64,000 nucleotides of DNA from Marinomonas profundi (GTDB lineage Bacteria > Pseudomonadota > Gammaproteobacteria > Pseudomonadales > Marinomonadaceae): positions 1,808,578-1,872,577 of the forward strand of contig NZ_CP073013.1 in NCBI RefSeq assembly GCF_020694005.1. The letters are read 5' to 3'. The notes under the pieces are model-generated. The model saw nothing but the letters and a program-made list of their open reading frames with translations, did no database searches and had not been told where the DNA came from. A program made the translations under genes and the position numbers. Below, one piece after another: positions 12,553-20,995 of the stretch. The stretch's first letter is position 1, and each line of letters starts with the position of its first letter.

Positions 12553-12711
12553 GTTAAATTCCATCCAGTCACGATCAAAGTGCACAAGATGGACTGACCC
12601 AGCAGGCATTTCAAGAGGGCTATCGGGAAATTACATTGCCATGACACAACCTTGATGTATTCATGAGGTTAGCGTCACAGGGCGATGAATTTTTGCGGTC
12701 TTTTAGGTTTT

Positions 12712-13764
12712 TTAGCGGTGTGTCTTTTCATGATCCAATAACCAGCGTTTGCGTTCTAGTCCTCCAGAATAGCCGGTTAAGCTGCCATCTTTGCCTATCA
12801 CTCGATGGCAAGGAATAACAATGGCAATGCGGTTCATACCATTGGCGCGGGCGACGGCTCTGACGGCGTTGGGGTTGTTCAAGCGAATGGCTTGTTCTTG
12901 ATAGCTGGCGGTGTCACCAAAAGGAATGGAACCCAAGGCTTGCCAGACGGCGTTTTGAAAATCGGTGCCCGGCGTGTGGAGCGGTACCGAGAAGGTTTTC
13001 CGTTGGCCTGCAAAATATTCCTCCAGCTCTGTTTTAAGCTGTGTCATATGGGCGTTTTCCCCCGTTATGATCGGTGCTTTTAAACGCCGTTGTAAGTCTT
13101 CAAATTCGGTTTCTAACATGCGTCGATCAACGAATTCTAGTAGACAAATGCCGTCATCCGTCGCGCAAACAAACATCGGCCCAATCGGCGTGGTTAACCT
13201 ATCGATTAGAATCACAGTATTCTCCAAATTCAAGGTTGGCGCATGGCCAAGTAATTTTTTAAAAGTGTAACCGAAACCACTTAACGAGTCGTAGCCCGAA
13301 TCCAACGCAGTATGAGTGGCGGTTTTGCCGGTCTTTAATTCTTGAAAGGCATAATTGATACGGTACATGCGCTGAAACGTTTGAAACGTCATGCCGTAAT
13401 GTTGATTAAACCAACGACGGACAAAAATGGGCCGGATGCCGGATTCTCTTAACTGCTGGTCGGTGATTTTGGCCTTAGTGCAATCGCGCACTAGGTTCAT
13501 CGCGGCTTGCACTTCATCGGGTGCTTCGTGGGCGTTTTCAGTGGGTCGACAGACTTTACAAGGACGAAAACCCGCGTCCATAGCGTCTTTAAAATGCGTG
13601 TAAAACACCACGTTTTCGCGCTTTGGCTTGCGCGCCCGACAGCTCGCAATGCAAAAAATAGCCGTGGTTTTCACGCCAACAAAAAACACCCCAACATAGC
13701 TTGGTTCACGGTTGAGTAAGGCTTGATAATAACCATCGGCTTGTTTTTCATCTGTTATTAACAT
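12712..13764 (-). CDS. ada: Bifunctional Ada: DNA methylation repair / transcription activator
   Basis: 350-aa Ada homologue. The N-terminal domain has the four zinc cysteines in TTAIFCIASCRAR (about 33-45) and FRPCKVC (about 67-73). The first of these cysteines is the one that accepts methyl groups from DNA phosphotriesters and switches Ada into an activator. An AraC-type helix-turn-helix region spans about 95-175. The C-terminal O6-methylguanine-DNA methyltransferase contains the active site VIPCHRVIGKDGSLTGY near 315-331. The length matches the E. coli protein. It stands alone, without alkB in the window. A tag glycosylase lies about 10 kb away, so alkylation repair is represented twice. 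Confidence 0.95.
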   Translation of the reverse strand: MLITDEKQADGYYQALLNREPSYVGVFFVGVKTTAIFCIASCRARKPKRENVVFYTHFKDAMDAGFRPCKVCRPTENAHEAPDEVQAAMNLVRDCTKAKITDQQLRESGIRPIFVRRWFNQHYGMTFQTFQRMYRINYAFQELKTGKTATHTALDSGYDSLSGFGYTFKKLLGHAPTLNLENTVILIDRLTTPIGPMFVCATDDGICLLEFVDRRMLETEFEDLQRRLKAPIITGENAHMTQLKTELEEYFAGQRKTFSVPLHTPGTDFQNAVWQALGSIPFGDTASYQEQAIRLNNPNAVRAVARANGMNRIAIVIPCHRVIGKDGSLTGYSGGLERKRWLLDHEKTHR

Positions 13765-14023
13765 GCGCTTGTCCGTTGTTTGAATAATGGATGAAGTCGT
13801 GTGTAGTTGAGTTGTGTGTAGTTGAGTCGAGTTTACTGAGTTAGGTTAGCTTGCTTAGCAATCAAGCCACAACCGAAAACTGGACGAGCATTTTTTTATT
13901 TTTTAATGGGGCGATAGATTATTTCTAAATACGAAATAGAAACTTAATAAATAGCCTATATATCTTAATTTTGTAAAAGAATAGAGTGTTTATCATTCGA
14001 GTGACTCTTTATAAGGATTCTGC

Positions 14024-14638
14024 ATGTCTACTACTCTTTTGATACAAGCGCCGCATTCGCCCACGCATTTGTTTTTATTATTTCATGGTGTTGGTGCTAC
14101 GCCACAGAGCCTGGCTTTTTTGGGAGGTGTTTTGGCGACGTCTTTCCCCAGCGCCACTATTGTGTCGGTACAAGCACCAGATGCTTCCGATTTTGGACAA
14201 GGTTACCAATGGTTTTCGGTACAAGGTGTGACGGAAGAAAATCGCATTGAACGTATCGAAGCGGCGATGCCAGCTTTTGTCGATAGCGTAAAATATTGGC
14301 AACAAAAAACCGCTTTAAGCGCGGCTAAAACAACCTTGCTCGGTTTTTCTCAAGGGGCAATTATGGCCTTGTCTTCGACACAAATGGTCGATGAAAAGCT
14401 AGCCGAAAAAATAGTGTCTTTGTCTGGGCGATTTGCTTTATTGCCAAAGAGAGAGCCCGTGAATACGCAAATACATTTTATCCATGGTGATCAGGACAAG
14501 GTGATTGACTATCGTCTGTCTAAATCAGCGTATGACGCTTTGATAGGTTATGGTGCAAAGGCGACTTATGATCTTATTCCAGGTCTGGCTCATACGGTGA
14601 ATCAGGCTGTTTTGGATCGTTTGTTAGGGCATTTATAG
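14024..14638 (+). CDS. ypfH: Alpha/beta-hydrolase esterase, YpfH-like
   Basis: 204-aa cytosolic carboxylesterase of the phospholipase/carboxylesterase (YpfH) family. The oxyanion block LLFHGVGATPQS is at residues 18-29. The nucleophile elbow LLGFSQGAIM near 107 carries the catalytic serine, the acid is in IHGDQDKVID near 155, and the catalytic histidine is in GLAHTVN near 190. AAGGA lies nine bases before the ATG. It is a single gene; the hairpin downstream mostly serves the opposing chemoreceptor gene. The physiological substrate is unknown. Confidence 0.88.
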   Translation: MSTTLLIQAPHSPTHLFLLFHGVGATPQSLAFLGGVLATSFPSATIVSVQAPDASDFGQGYQWFSVQGVTEENRIERIEAAMPAFVDSVKYWQQKTALSAAKTTLLGFSQGAIMALSSTQMVDEKLAEKIVSLSGRFALLPKREPVNTQIHFIHGDQDKVIDYRLSKSAYDALIGYGAKATYDLIPGLAHTVNQAVLDRLLGHL

Positions 14639-14655
14639 AGCATTTATGGACAATG

Positions 14656-14690
14656 AAAAAGCCCTAACGCCAGTGTTCTGGTGTTAGGGC
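14656..14690 (-). terminator. Terminator of the split chemoreceptor gene
   Basis: Arms 14661-14672 (GCCCTAACGCCA) and 14679-14690 pair with one wobble around a 6-base loop. On the minus strand the stem is followed by a U5 run (A-run 14656-14660). It lies between the convergent esterase and chemoreceptor genes. Confidence 0.82.
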
Positions 14691-14726
14691 TAGGGGAGAG
14701 ATTTTGAAGCGCTTTAACGATGCAGA

Positions 14727-16635
14727 CTAACTAGACTTGAAGCGCGCCACCATGCTTTGCAGTTCCGCCGACAGCGTATTGAGTGCGGTGGCTGTTTGTG
14801 AAACTTGCTGAGAAAGATCGCTGGTTTTTATCGTGCCATCATGAATCACGATCACATTGGTGTTAATTTCTTCCGCCACCAAATGTTGCTCCTCGGCGGA
14901 GGCGCTGATTTGAATCATCATGTCCTTAATCTCCAAAACGGAATGAAGGATTTTTTCAAAAACTTGGTACGTTTGAGACGCCAATACAACCGACTCTTTT
15001 GTCACCGTAACGCTGTTATTCATCTTATTCGCCACAGCGCCTGTTTGTTGTTTTAACTTAGTGAGCATGTTGTCAATTTCGGTCGTTGATTCTGCCGTTC
15101 TGCCTGCTAGTGTGCGCACCTCATCGGCAACAACCGCAAATCCACGCCCTTGCTCACCAGCACTAGCCGCTTCAATTGCCGCGTTCAACGCGAGCAAGTT
15201 GGTTTGTTCAGCGATGGCTTTAATGGTGTCTAGAATACTAACGATACTCTCAGAATCTTTTGTTAACTCGATCATGCTTTCATTTGAGCTGAAAATTTCT
15301 TTTTCTAGATTATTCAAAGAACTCATCGTTTGCTGGATAAGTTTATTGCCTTCTTGTACCTGTGCTTCACTGTTTTCCGCTGCTGCCGCGGCGCTACTGC
15401 AGTTTGACGCCACTTCATTCGCGGTAGCGACCATTTCATTAAAGGCGGTTGAGACATGATCAACAGAGTTCACTTGATGTGACGCAATGTTGCTGAGCTC
15501 TGATGATAGCCCTTCCGACTTGTTAGCAACTTGGCTGATCTGCTCACAAGACGATTTTGCATGGCCGACGATACTGTCTATCGATGTGACAAACTGATTA
15601 AACGCTGACGCCATTTGGCCTGATTCGTCTTTGTCTTTTACTTCTAAGCGCTGTGTTAAATCCCCTTCGCCTTGACTAATATCGGTCAAGCGATCGGCCA
15701 TAACTTTGACGGGGCGAATCACAATGCCAGACAAAATGGCGCCAATTGTCATAAATATTGCGATCATGACGAGCGCAATAATAACGGTGGTGGTGATCAG
15801 ACTGTTTGCTTGTGCGTAAATAACCTTGCTTGGAACCAGCCCGATAAACTTCCAGCCAAGAGCGGGTGATGTATAAACCATCGCGAACCATGTTTCTCCA
15901 TCAATGGTTAGCTCTTGAAGGGCATCGCTATCCTTGAGTGTAGAATAAGGCCGCGAGGCATCTTTAATCGGTTTGAAGTTGTTCTCTGGATCAACAGGGT
16001 CGGCTAAGATGGTATTGGTATCTTCCACCATGACCACATAGCCTTCACCACCAAACTTTACTTTGGCCAATAATTCCGTCAGCTTTTTCAAGGTTACATC
16101 AACACCAACGGTTCCATACAGACCGTTTTGGCCTTCAAAGCGTTGTAAGTAATCGACTAAAGGCGCTCCGGTAAAAGAGTCTTTATAGGATGGAATGCGG
16201 ATAGGTGTTTTGCTATCAATCGATTGCTTGTACCAATTATGAGTTGTAGCGTCATAGTTGATGCCATTTTTACCTTTTGGCCACTGCAGGTAACCTGAAT
16301 CGTTGGTTCCAAGCCAAATATACGCTAGATCTGGGTGTGATTTACCAAAATCATCCATAAGCGCGAACGCTTTTTGCTCTTGAGGAGAGTTTTGCTCTGG
16401 GGTCATCATTTCTTGGGTGGTTTTGTTTGCGTAACTCGTGATGCTGTTAGGCGTCAGTTCGTTTAGTGCACCAGATCTTGCGAAAAACGCGACATTTTCG
16501 GCAAGGTTATTTAAATACATTGAGAAAATACTATCGACGTGCCCAATCTCTGTCTGACTTTGGGATTCAAAATTCTTTATCGCATTTTTACGCACTTCGC
16601 TAATGATGACAGCAGATACAATAAAAACAGGCAAG
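14727..16635 (-). pseudogene. Methyl-accepting chemotaxis protein, 3' part, separated from its start by an IS
   Basis: This is a Cache-type chemoreceptor from codon 17 onwards. It contains most of TM1, a dCache periplasmic sensor (about 45-290 of the intact numbering), TM2, HAMP, and a signalling domain with the tip [19 protein letters not shown]. The first 16 codons lie on the other side of an IS5-group element (17813-17860). Removing the IS and one CAAG copy rejoins the reading frame exactly as ...GVIL-PVFIV..., giving a 651-aa protein. The TTG at 16634, which could look like a start, is the duplicated target codon Leu17; no ribosome site precedes it. The remaining 635 codons have no stop, so the insertion is probably recent. 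Expression from the IS end cannot be excluded. Confidence 0.93.
16632..16635. repeat. IS target-site duplication CAAG, left copy
   Basis: CAAG directly precedes the IS end that begins GGAAC. The same four bases follow the other IS end at 17810-17813. A 4-bp duplication of the form C(A/T)A(A/G) is what IS5-group elements produce. Confidence 0.9.
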
Positions 16636-17809
16636 GGAACATACGAACAAGTAAGACAATTTTTAGCTGACTTTCAGCTTGTGACAGTATTTCCTCAGAA
16701 GCGACATTTAATCACCACTTAACCCACTTGTAAGGTACTTCAAGCACCTTACAACCGTTATTTGGACGGATTAACCCCGTGCAGAACGTATCATCTGATC
16801 TACTCGTAACAAATTTCCAAGTGCAAACAGCACGGCGAGTTTGTTGTCATTTTTAGACAGGCCTTTGTAGACGACTTTGCGGAACCCAAACTGGCATTTC
16901 AGTATTCTAAACGGGTGCTCGACTTTCGCTCGGATACTCGCCTTTAAGTATTCCGTTCGGATCAGCTGCTTGTTGAGGCGGGGGTGCTTTTTCCAAGCAC
17001 GTATCTTGCTGGGCATCTCAGCTACTAACCAATCGACATTCTTATCTTTTGTTTCTGTGCGCTTTTCTACGCCACGGTAGCCAGAGTCCGCCGATACAAA
17101 TGACTCATTGCCATGAAGAAGTTCCGTCAACTGGTTTAAATCGTGATCATTGGCAGGCGTCGTGGTGAAGCTGTGAACTAACCCACGCTTTGCATCAACA
17201 CCGATGTGAGCTTTCATGCCAAAGAACCATTGTTTTCCCTTTTGCGTTTGGTGCATTTCGGGATCGCGTGCATTAGATTTATTTTTGGTGGAACTTGCTG
17301 CCTCAATAATCGTCGCATCAACGATTGTCCCTTCTTTAAAGTAGGTGCCAGAATCAGACAGCCATTTGTTTACTTCTTTGAAGAGTTTACGACCCAGCTT
17401 ATGCTTCTCAAGCAGGTGACGGAAATTCATGATGGTCGTGTGGTCTGGGATCGCACCTTCTAATGATAGGCCAGCAAACAGCCGCATAGAGGTGATCTCG
17501 TAAAGGGCATCTTCCATCGCTGGATCACTCATGTTGTACCAGTTCTGCATAAAGTGAATGCGCAGCATGGTAGCGAGAGGGTATGGACGCCGACCATTGC
17601 CAGCTTTTGGGTAAAACGGCTCAATCTGAGCTTCGAGCTGTAGCCATGGAATCAGCTCATTCATCCGACCAAGGAAGAGCTCTTTGCGAGTCTTGCGGCG
17701 TTTGCTGGTAAATTCGGTATCGGCGAAGGAAAGCTGATTCATGTCATTCGGTCTTGAGGTAATGGTCAGATCGGCATTGTCTCATATTGGGGACTTAATC
17801 GCAGTTTCC
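16636..17809 (-). mobile_element. IS5-family insertion sequence (IS5 group), 1,174 bp
   Basis: The element is bounded by imperfect inverted repeats: GGAACATACGAACAAGT (16636-16652) and GGAAACTGCGATTAAGT read inward from 17809 (17793-17809), 12 of 17 positions matching. It is flanked by CAAG duplications and has one transposase gene on the minus strand. Its length is close to the 1,195 bp of E. coli IS5. It has inserted into codon 17 of a chemoreceptor gene, in the same orientation as that gene. No other copy occurs in this window. Confidence 0.95.
16771..17742 (-). CDS. IS5-group transposase (DDE)
   Basis: 323-aa DDE transposase, very similar in layout to InsH of E. coli IS5. The N-terminal [19 protein letters not shown] block is followed by [21 protein letters not shown]. 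The catalytic acids sit in VDATIIEA (about 143), SADSGYRG (about 219) and KVEHPFR (about 278). The frame is intact from ATG 17742 to the TAA at 16771, so the element may still be mobile. It belongs to the IS at 16636-17809. Confidence 0.96.
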
Positions 17810-17860
17810 CAAGATGACGCCTGCGGCCATTAGAGCAATGATTTTAGATCTAACTGTCAT
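17810..17860 (-). pseudogene. Methyl-accepting chemotaxis protein, first 17 codons
   Basis: ATG 17860, preceded by TGAGG at a good distance, encodes MTVRSKIIALMAAGVIL, the cytoplasmic start and first half of TM1, and then runs into the IS. It is the missing 5' end of the chemoreceptor at 14727-16635; the CAAG at 17810-17813 is the second target-site copy. The native promoter and start codon are therefore now 1.2 kb from the rest of the gene. Confidence 0.92.
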
Positions 17861-18138
17861 GAATACCTCACTTAAGTACCGAATAGAATATAAGACCTAT
17901 AACGAATTAAAAAAGGGCGCTGGGTGGCAGGGTTCTCTAATGCAATTTTCATTGTCACTTTTATGGTCACTGCAATGAATCTAGGCCATTTTTAGCCATC
18001 TGTCAGTATTAATTCGTCTCTGTTCAGTTGATAAAAGAAAGCAAAAAATCTTTTGTTCATCCTACATTTTATCCTTATCATTCGTCCCTTCTTTTTATTC
18101 TTTTCCGATTCGCTCAAGAGTCATGTAAGGACGATTTT

Positions 18139-18900
18139 ATGGATTACAGTTTATTCACCGTGTCGCTTTTGATCGGGACGGGTTTTCTTGCTGGCATTAT
18201 TAATACTTTAGCGGGTGGTGGCTCTAATCTTACCTTGCCCGCCTTGATGGTGATGGGCATGCCAGCGGACATTGCCAATGCGACCAATCGAGTGGGGGTG
18301 TTTTTGCAAAATGTGGCGGCGACTTTTGGCTTTCGTAAAGCGAAAAAGCTCGATAATGCCGATATTTTACCGGTGATGATACCGTCTCTACTGGGCGGCG
18401 TAGTAGGGGCTTTTGCCGCCAGCTACGCACCAGAAACTTGGCTCAAGCCGCTATTGCTTAGTGCGATGATCGGCATGACCATCATCATGATTGTTCGCCC
18501 TACCATGATAGCGCCACCCGAAGGCACGGTGCCTTTTAAAGTCTCAGAAAAGCCCAGTGCGTGGATTGCCTTGTTTATTGCTGGCGTGTACGGTGGTTTT
18601 GTGCAAGCAGGTGTGGGCTTTATTCTTATTGCGGCGTTGGCGGGCACCTTGCGTTACGACTTGGTACGCACAAATGCGCTGAAAATGGTCTGTACGCTGG
18701 GCTTTACCGCCTTGGCGCTAGGGGTGTTTATTTGGAATGATCAGATCCTGTGGATTCCTGGATTAATCCTTGCCTCTGGCACCATACTTGGCTCTTTCCT
18801 CGCGGTAAAAATGGCCATCAAAGCCAACCCCGGCCAGCTTAAATGGTTCCTTTTTGTGATGACGGTATGTGGCAGTGCCGCCGCGCTGTTGAGTGATTAA
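18139..18900 (+). CDS. TauE/SafE-family membrane permease
   Basis: 253-aa inner-membrane protein of the TauE/SafE (former DUF81) family, about eight helices in two repeats. The family motif at the end of helix 1, FLAGIINTLAGGGSNLTLPAL, is at residues 13-33, and its second-half counterpart AGVYGGFVQAGVGFILIAAL starts near 152. Members move sulfur-containing or other small anions; the substrate here is unknown. ATG 18139 is preceded by TAAGGA. An in-frame start at 18028 would add 37 unsupported residues. A GC-rich hairpin follows the stop. Confidence 0.85.
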   Translation: MDYSLFTVSLLIGTGFLAGIINTLAGGGSNLTLPALMVMGMPADIANATNRVGVFLQNVAATFGFRKAKKLDNADILPVMIPSLLGGVVGAFAASYAPETWLKPLLLSAMIGMTIIMIVRPTMIAPPEGTVPFKVSEKPSAWIALFIAGVYGGFVQAGVGFILIAALAGTLRYDLVRTNALKMVCTLGFTALALGVFIWNDQILWIPGLILASGTILGSFLAVKMAIKANPGQLKWFLFVMTVCGSAAALLSD

Positions 18901-18910
18901 ACTGATATCT

Positions 18911-18950
18911 CGCCCCTTGGGGCGGGGTTATTCATTTTCAGAGAAAAGGT
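18911..18950 (+). terminator. Possible weak terminator after the TauE-like gene
   Basis: CGCCC/GGGCG pair around a short loop at 18911-18924, followed after GGG by TTATTCATTTT. The stem is short and the U-tract broken, so termination is plausible but uncertain. It sits between convergent genes. Confidence 0.4.
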
Positions 18951-18964
18951 TACGTAATTCGCTG

Positions 18965-20995
18965 TTACTCGACCAGTTTTTTCCCCGGAGCCGCAAAACG
19001 GTTCAATACTTCTTGCAGACGTTTCTTTGCCTTATGGCGCTGGCGAACATCACTGAGGATTTTTTCCCACCGTGGCAGCGTGTTTTGTTGTTGGCAAATT
19101 AAATGGATCTGCTTGAGGTGTTCCCCAGCGGTTGGGTAGTTCTTAGGGTTCACCTTGCCAATTTCAGCCTCAGCTTTATTAAGCCATATGGTGATAGCAA
19201 GATCGGGATGGGTAGCGGCGACTTTTCTCGCCAACATTTTCGCTGTGCTTGATTGATACTTATAGGCGTTGGCTGGCAATTGCTCAAATAACTCTGCGGC
19301 CGCTGCAAAGCGCTTTTCATGTAGCGCAATGTCAATCTTAAGCAAATCATAGGAAGAAGACTTGGGTAAACTGCTTGGGGAAGATTGTCGATTTGCGTTG
19401 TAGTTAAACCGCGTTAGTAAAGGCGCAGGCAAAGGCCACACCGTTTCATCCCAATCCGGTTCTGGCAGGGTGCCGTCATCTAAATAATCGATGAGTTTGT
19501 TGCGTACTGGCTGCCAAATAGACAGAGACTGACAAAGCTCTTCTTGTTGTTTAAACCGGTCAAGATCTGGGCGAGTAAAGTAATCATCGGCCAATAATGC
19601 CGCCACCTCGTGGTTTTTGCCTTCTTTTTGCAATTGTTCTACTAACAGTTTTTTCAGTGATGAGGCTGCGCCAGATGACGTGTTTTTAAAGCCTATAGTG
19701 ATCCATTTTTTGGCTTTCTCCGCGTCATTGATGGTTAAATACTTTGTTACTAATTCACGATAGTCTTCCGTGATGTCTATATTGTTTTCCATTATCGTTA
19801 ATATCGCCGCTTGGTCATGCAATTTTTCCAATGCGGACAGCAGGTGTTGTAAGACATTTTTGTACTGGTATCGCTCACTAAAAGATAACGCTCTATTAGT
19901 TAGTGCTTTTCTCTGATTGTCCAACCGTTCACCCAGTATCCTGGCGACAGAGCGCCATTCAGTCTCTTGATAACTGGCATGCTCATAGGGCAGGTCAATG
20001 TTATACAAAATACAATACTCGTCTGATAATTCATGATCGATTAGCCAAAGTAGCTGATCAACCGGCGACAGTGAACTATTGGCAAGTGCTGTGTATACGG
20101 GTTGCATGGCAGAGCACAGCTGTTCGGCGGTTTCGCCTTCGTCACCCGAGTTTCCAACTTGTATTATGCCCATTGTCCAAAGTTCTTTTCCTAGGGCGAT
20201 TACCTCATCAAACTGCCCCTGTTCCAGTAACGCTGTTAAGCCTCTTTCAATGGGGCCATAGCTTGGTGTAAAACCTGTGCCATCCCAATGGTTTTGCCAA
20301 CTTTCTTGCGCGGTGATTTTCTTGATTTGGTGGCGTAGATTCGCAATTTGTTTTTTAGGATCCAGCGTCGATAACGCGTCAGCGCGCTCCCTTATATCAA
20401 ACAGAATATCATCAGGATCATCCTCTGCCATTTCCATTAGTAACTGAATAAGTTTGCCTTTAGTCAGAGCGTTCAGAGTACGACGAAGCTGCATATGAAA
20501 GTCTATGTCTTCGTCTGCTTCATCCTCGTCTAGGTCTTGATGACGGTAGAGTTGGCTTGGTAACGCCAATACTGACTCAGTATTTAGGCCCGAGTTGGTG
20601 AGTTTTTCCCTAATCGACTTGATTCTGGCGTCTTTATCTAGTCTTTCTTGATCCATTTCGGTAGGCATGAGAGTGTTTTCTTCTGGCGCTTGTGTGGGAA
20701 TATTCTGACCCGATGTTAGCACTTTTGCCGCTGCCAAAATCAGGGCCACCGCATGTTTGCAATGCCCCCAGCTATAAGGACAAGAACAATCGGATTCCAG
20801 AGAACCCTCTAGAAAGACTCGGCAATCGTACAGCTCACTACCTTGAACCCGTGCATTGAGTTGGTCGTCATTCCCTAAATGAAGTTGCATGACCTTGTGG
20901 GTAAGCCCCTTACCCCGCTCAAAAATAGTGCTACCAGCCCATGTTTCTAAATCATCATAGGTTAGGGCTTGTAAATATCGAATCAGATCAGTCAC
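18965..20995 (-). CDS. SWIM zinc-finger domain protein, function unknown
   Basis: 676-aa soluble protein. Near residues 70-83 it has the SWIM motif CSCPYSWGHCKHAV (CxCx6CxH), a zinc site used for DNA or protein contact. The N-terminal 60 residues (YDDLETWAGSTIFERGKGL) match the usual lead into SWIM domains. The rest is acidic and helical. It looks like a helical-repeat scaffold, with an acidic stretch near 155-165 (DLDEDEADEDIDF), and ends in a basic DVRQRHKAKKRLQEVLNRF segment. No Walker, nuclease or helicase motif was seen. In many bacteria SWIM proteins sit next to SNF2 helicases or MoxR/VWA genes; none is nearby here. Function not assigned. Confidence 0.75.
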   Translation of the reverse strand: MTDLIRYLQALTYDDLETWAGSTIFERGKGLTHKVMQLHLGNDDQLNARVQGSELYDCRVFLEGSLESDCSCPYSWGHCKHAVALILAAAKVLTSGQNIPTQAPEENTLMPTEMDQERLDKDARIKSIREKLTNSGLNTESVLALPSQLYRHQDLDEDEADEDIDFHMQLRRTLNALTKGKLIQLLMEMAEDDPDDILFDIRERADALSTLDPKKQIANLRHQIKKITAQESWQNHWDGTGFTPSYGPIERGLTALLEQGQFDEVIALGKELWTMGIIQVGNSGDEGETAEQLCSAMQPVYTALANSSLSPVDQLLWLIDHELSDEYCILYNIDLPYEHASYQETEWRSVARILGERLDNQRKALTNRALSFSERYQYKNVLQHLLSALEKLHDQAAILTIMENNIDITEDYRELVTKYLTINDAEKAKKWITIGFKNTSSGAASSLKKLLVEQLQKEGKNHEVAALLADDYFTRPDLDRFKQQEELCQSLSIWQPVRNKLIDYLDDGTLPEPDWDETVWPLPAPLLTRFNYNANRQSSPSSLPKSSSYDLLKIDIALHEKRFAAAAELFEQLPANAYKYQSSTAKMLARKVAATHPDLAITIWLNKAEAEIGKVNPKNYPTAGEHLKQIHLICQQQNTLPRWEKILSDVRQRHKAKKRLQEVLNRFAAPGKKLVE

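Follow-up and report, generated by a model that had tools for sequence, protein, structure and literature searches.

Does the chemoreceptor gene that begins at a TTG beside a transposase gene in Marinomonas profundi represent a complete gene, or is it the remnant of one that a mobile element has interrupted? The locus lies within a stretch of 64,000 nucleotides, referred to here as the window. An earlier note on this DNA had interpreted it as a recent insertion of an IS5-group element into codon 17 of a Cache chemoreceptor. The parts of the receptor gene are listed below in the order in which they are read, with the basis of each assignment in parentheses.

17866–17869, minus strand: GAGG, resembling a ribosome site, before the native ATG (sequence)
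17810–17860, minus strand: receptor 5' fragment, the native first 17 codons (sequence; same start in 15/15 distinct relatives)
17810–17813, no strand: target-site duplication, copy 1, CAAG on the plus and CTTG on the minus strand (sequence and element-end comparison)
16632–16635, no strand: target-site duplication, copy 2, CAAG on the plus and CTTG on the minus strand (sequence and element-end comparison)
14727–16634, minus strand: receptor remainder, a 635-aa frame from the TTG within the duplicated CTTG (ORF list)
15843–16532, minus strand: dCache_1 sensor domain, protein residues 35–264 (Pfam)
15579–15734, minus strand: HAMP domain, residues 301–352 (Pfam)
14844–15383, minus strand: MCPsignal domain, residues 418–597 (Pfam)

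A receptor gene interrupted in its first helix

The native gene opens at an ATG (17860–17858, minus strand) with the GAGG just 5' of it, and its first codons now read on into the insertion sequence to specify a peptide of 21 residues. On the far side of the element, the frame that opens with the TTG at 16634 runs without an internal stop to its stop codon, the last base of which is 14727. Joining the flanks at a single CTTG (by script) gives one frame across the junction, and the 17 + 634 residues make up the uninterrupted 651-residue Cache chemoreceptor that had been claimed. The dCache_1 profile scores 64.3 bits against a Pfam cut-off of 45, and the matches to MCPsignal (139.5 bits, cut-off 34.6) and HAMP (43.4 bits, cut-off 25) identify the product as a methyl-accepting chemotaxis protein. 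The ends of the element, the CAAG duplication and the native start with its ribosome site can all be read directly in the sequence, as the earlier note had stated. Its expectation that annotation would start the gene at the TTG was borne out with a mechanical ORF listing. Rfam gave no RNA-element matches in 13500–19000.

Comparison with relatives places the native start beyond the element. The alignment has 18 rows; the entries for M. spartinae CECT 8886 and USM8 correspond to G012 and G005, as judged by matching coordinates, and were counted once, giving a counted set of 15 distinct relatives from 14 genomes. All 15 have a start codon 16 codons ahead of the break. The N terminus reads MTVRSKIIALVAAGVIL in G018 and G001, with close variants in most other relatives and more distant forms in G017, G023 and G030, the last of which starts at GTG. 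Relatives with these 17 codons missing, or with a different N terminus joined to the same receptor, had been named as evidence that would count against the interpretation; what was found instead is an N terminus of the same length on the same receptor in 15/15. In G018, the closest relative by receptor, the orthologue is 93% identical, uninterrupted and flanked, as here, by the esterase and TSUP genes.

Misplacement of the element by repeat joining during assembly might be considered, given that a second identical full copy exists elsewhere in the genome. However, the genome is a single contig, the 4-bp duplication is perfect and lies exactly at the element ends, and the sequences on either side align to a single gene of G018 in a single gene order, so that an artefact of this kind is barely credible.

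Not all members of the genus carry the receptor. Among 24 other genomes searched, eight carry a relative of at least about 69% identity and two have one at 51–53%, while in the remaining 14 no match exceeds 35%. A second paralogue (77% identical) occurs in G018 between the 170-aa neighbour and Ada, at L067:6365–8269; the corresponding place in the window, 12609–12712, is only about 100 bp long, and the paralogue is absent there. The next best relative of the receptor in this genome is 33% identical, among the matches listed. In the tree, the second paralogue of G018 groups with sequences of M. lutimaris, M. alcarazii and UCMA 3892, and the present gene and its G018 orthologue form a separate pair (100/99); it follows that the second paralogue either disappeared from this lineage or was acquired by G018. 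MCPsignal matches number 28 in this genome, 41 in G018 and 20 to 56 across 48 genomes of the genus, these counts being lower bounds where only 57 candidates were scored. A methyl-accepting chemotaxis protein of the window, with its conserved part from 32997 and a flagged internal stop, was considered as another broken receptor and rejected because the stop is the normal end of the gene. Outside the window, another MCPsignal match, L096 (G000:C1:1878658–1878954), is also flagged with an internal stop.

The inserted element and its copies

16636–17809, minus strand: complete IS5-group insertion sequence, 1174 bp (genome copies, genus copies, NCBIfam)
17793–17809, minus strand: left terminal inverted repeat, GGAAACTGCGATTAAGT (12/17 positions match the other end)
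16771–17742, minus strand: IS5-family transposase, 323 aa, uninterrupted (ORF list, Pfam, NCBIfam)
16728–16754, no strand: hairpin 3' of the transposase gene, without a T-run (sequence)
16636–16652, plus strand: right terminal inverted repeat, GGAACATACGAACAAGT (end comparison)

The transposase matches the IS5-family equivalog profile NF033581 of NCBIfam (IS5_4; 343.6 bits, cut-off 140) as well as DDE_Tnp_1 and DUF772 of Pfam. The element terminates in short inverted repeats like those of IS5, and its left end is similar to the one in an E. coli IS5. Together with the CAAG flanks and the N termini of the relatives, this family assignment bears out an IS5-group insertion at codon 17. Elsewhere in this genome there is another full copy, identical to this one (G000:C1:903240–904413), as well as a partial copy of 593 bp (C1:489352–489944; 99.83% identical by BLAST). 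Two other species of the genus, G024 and G056, carry copies that are 99.9% and 99.7% identical, with the same first and last bases. Because the identical copy and these two share both end bases, the ends of the element are known without recourse to the repeat, and a 4-bp match at ends fixed in this way has a chance of about 1/256. Some match to the element was found in 38/48 genomes of the genus, and full-length copies of at least 99.7% identity in three of the 48 (G000, G024 and G056), among the matches listed. G049 and G057 hold identical pieces; the same search gave no match in G018.

The other full copies are flanked by ATAG/CTAG (3/4 positions) in G024, CTAA/CTAA in G056 and TTAA/CTAT (2/4) at the second copy in this genome. 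Since the last has no matching duplication, the textbook footprint does not accompany every copy. The target of IS5 is CTAR, from which the CTTG used here departs; CTAG and CTAA occur at the other copies. This departure and the missing duplication at the second copy weigh against the insertion reading.

Several features of other copies and relatives were observed in passing. Many relatives of the element in the genus, 77–81% identical, match only to about position 1045–1059 and then continue into a different tail (left flanks in L045–L056), and judging from these alignments it looks as if the tails, positions 1045–1174, have been exchanged among them. In G057, identical pieces of the two ends (1–296 and 878–1174) are separated by about 22 kb and share one orientation (G057:C1:687137–709748). 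At L009:2703–5945 (G000:C1 about 486702–489944) a copy is split at 593/596 by about 2.2 kb containing a 400-aa reverse-transcriptase-like frame, which we take from its motifs to be a group II intron maturase. The 5' half of this copy is 99.8% identical to the element in the window, but identity drops to 77% in the 3' half, a pattern that could reflect the fusion of two distinct copies by intron movement or recombination. The second full copy (L010:3711–7414; G000:C1 about 900710–904413) adjoins a 235-aa frame that runs into the end of the element, and a 416-aa frame lies nearby; we presume these to be transposase-like and reverse-transcriptase-like, respectively.

Age of the insertion and condition of the receptor gene

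Both the element and the gene are fresh, in keeping with the young event that had been proposed. The two full copies differ at 0/1174 bases, which by simple arithmetic limits the changes since insertion to about 0.0013 per site (upper 95% bound), provided that the copies have not been homogenised. Against G018, the receptor has a dN/dS of 0.039, with 59 nonsynonymous and 239 synonymous differences. This value falls within the range of the neighbouring genes (Ada 0.045, TSUP 0.020, esterase 0.101; the 170-aa neighbour, with 14 codons only, is left out of the comparison), and nearly all of the divergence therefore arose while the gene was under selection. The orthologues differ at 43 residues, 16 of which changed on this branch and 10 on that of G018, with 17 unplaceable, and the corresponding branch lengths are 0.046 and 0.028.

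The earlier description of the downstream 635 codons as undamaged stands in so far as the frame is open throughout, but it is too strong, because two conserved functional positions have changed.

16239–16241, minus strand: residue 132, a pocket position aligned with PctA R126, here His (alignment of relatives)
15162–15164, minus strand: residue 491, a tip position aligned with Tsr R388, here Ser (relatives and tips of the same genome)

Residue 491, matched to Tsr R388 through the E-A-A-R motif, is Arg in 15/15 distinct relatives and in 26/26 other tips found in this genome; of the 28 MCPsignal loci, one is this gene and one (L084) gave no tip by the pattern. A figure legend in PMC8144572 describes Tsr R388 and E385 as an ionic lock in the trimer of dimers. 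The position of residue 132 is occupied by Arg in 11 and Lys in four of the 15 distinct relatives, and PMC10104139 assigns binding of the amino-acid carboxyl group to the position of PctA R126. The equivalent Arg of the amino-acid-binding dCache (AA motif) is thus absent from this copy, which has His, whereas the pocket Tyr, Trp-Tyr and Asp are kept. Judged from the domain and these pocket residues, the ligand of the receptor group is probably an amino acid. A general excess of damage was looked for and rejected: changes at otherwise invariant columns number one here against 0–32 in the other 17 rows, or two against 0–13 when the three most distant rows are left out. This is within the range of the other rows and no excess is claimed.

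These substitutions raise the question of whether the gene was already failing, with residues 132 and 491 changing first and the element then entering a gene no longer under selection. Ser491 is unique when set against the 15 distinct relatives, and the absence of differences between the copies of the element caps neutral changes in the receptor since insertion at about 2.4, which leaves little time for several changes to follow it. On the other hand, the overall dN/dS is low, the otherwise invariant columns have no overall excess of changes, and two changes still fit inside the bound, which itself assumes unhomogenised copies. We regard prior failure as possible, at somewhat less than even odds. 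A more elaborate sequence of events would have the lineage shedding an amino-acid receptor group stepwise: the paralogue goes, the other gene loses both its ligand-binding and its trimer-contact arginine before capture by the element, and the end of the element then restores a hydrophobic N terminus, such that a weak hybrid receptor may persist. As a complete scheme this is a long shot.

Consequence for the receptor and comparison with known systems

Our preferred reading, to which we assign a probability of about 0.95, is that transposition placed a complete IS5-group element at a CTTG in codon 17 of a dCache chemoreceptor gene, duplicating 4 bp and splitting the first transmembrane helix, with a null receptor as the predicted outcome. 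The native start would now yield only the short peptide, while the remaining frame would lack most of the first helix and a good ribosome site; the sensor domain would then not be exported. The insertion most likely switches the receptor off, a loss of function deduced from the sequence. As the transposase gene has the same orientation as the receptor, the native promoter may also transcribe the transposase.

The main challenge to a null receptor is that the remnant could still be made and work, from the native promoter or one in the element, starting at the TTG or within the element and carrying a shortened or hybrid helix. For the best 19-residue stretch at the N terminus, hydropathy is 2.71 in the native protein and 1.29 with a start at the TTG; translation of the frame inside the element would give 2.14, the usual cut-off being 1.6. 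The hybrid value exceeds this cut-off and counts against a null receptor, as does the fact that the frame is open into the element for 648 codons; there are also few radical changes in the gene overall. However, the part of that frame within the element has no standard start codon, no sequence resembling a ribosome site precedes the TTG, the TTG form is poorly hydrophobic, and tip and pocket residues have changed. An outward promoter at the end of the element was also sought by a consensus scan; none was found there, and the three promoter-like sites in 14600–18150 compare with 5.5 expected by chance. A working remnant is therefore very improbable, and the null receptor remains the preferred outcome.

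Interruption of a receptor gene by a mobile element is an ordinary kind of event, here very clean. It is a new instance of a textbook insertion and by itself opens no new biology, but it provides a clean, datable example of chemoreceptor loss driven by an insertion sequence in a free-living marine genus, and the insertion could serve as a marker to tell isolates apart. It also illustrates that a normal-looking receptor started at TTG may be what is left of a gene that was interrupted. Relative to the earlier note, the present analysis makes one correction, the two changed conserved residues, and one addition, the missing paralogue. Titles and the opening parts of abstracts in a literature search gave no description of this insertion, and the portions of PMC6053426 and PMC3826837 available to us report no IS5 insertion in a chemoreceptor.

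The locus can be set beside three known systems. With the PctA-type dCache chemoreceptors, the reconstructed protein shares dCache_1, HAMP and MCPsignal, and 6mni_A is the closest solved sequence (E = 1.1e-34); it differs in its interrupted first helix and in the His and Ser at the positions of PctA R126 and Tsr R388. The element resembles E. coli IS5 in its transposase family, in ends of the form GGAA..TGCGA..AAGTC and in its 4-bp duplication. Copies annotated as E. coli IS5 have a DNA identity of 68% to it over 81% of its length. Whereas the E. coli copy in L098 is 1195 bp long and lies between CTAG repeats, the element here measures 1174 bp, has a diverged tail and is inserted at CTTG rather than CTAG. 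The best match in the plasmid collection is an IS5-family element on a plasmid of Marinomonas algicola (NZ_CP061942.1), whose transposase is 89.8% identical; the comparison covers the transposase, and it is not the same element.
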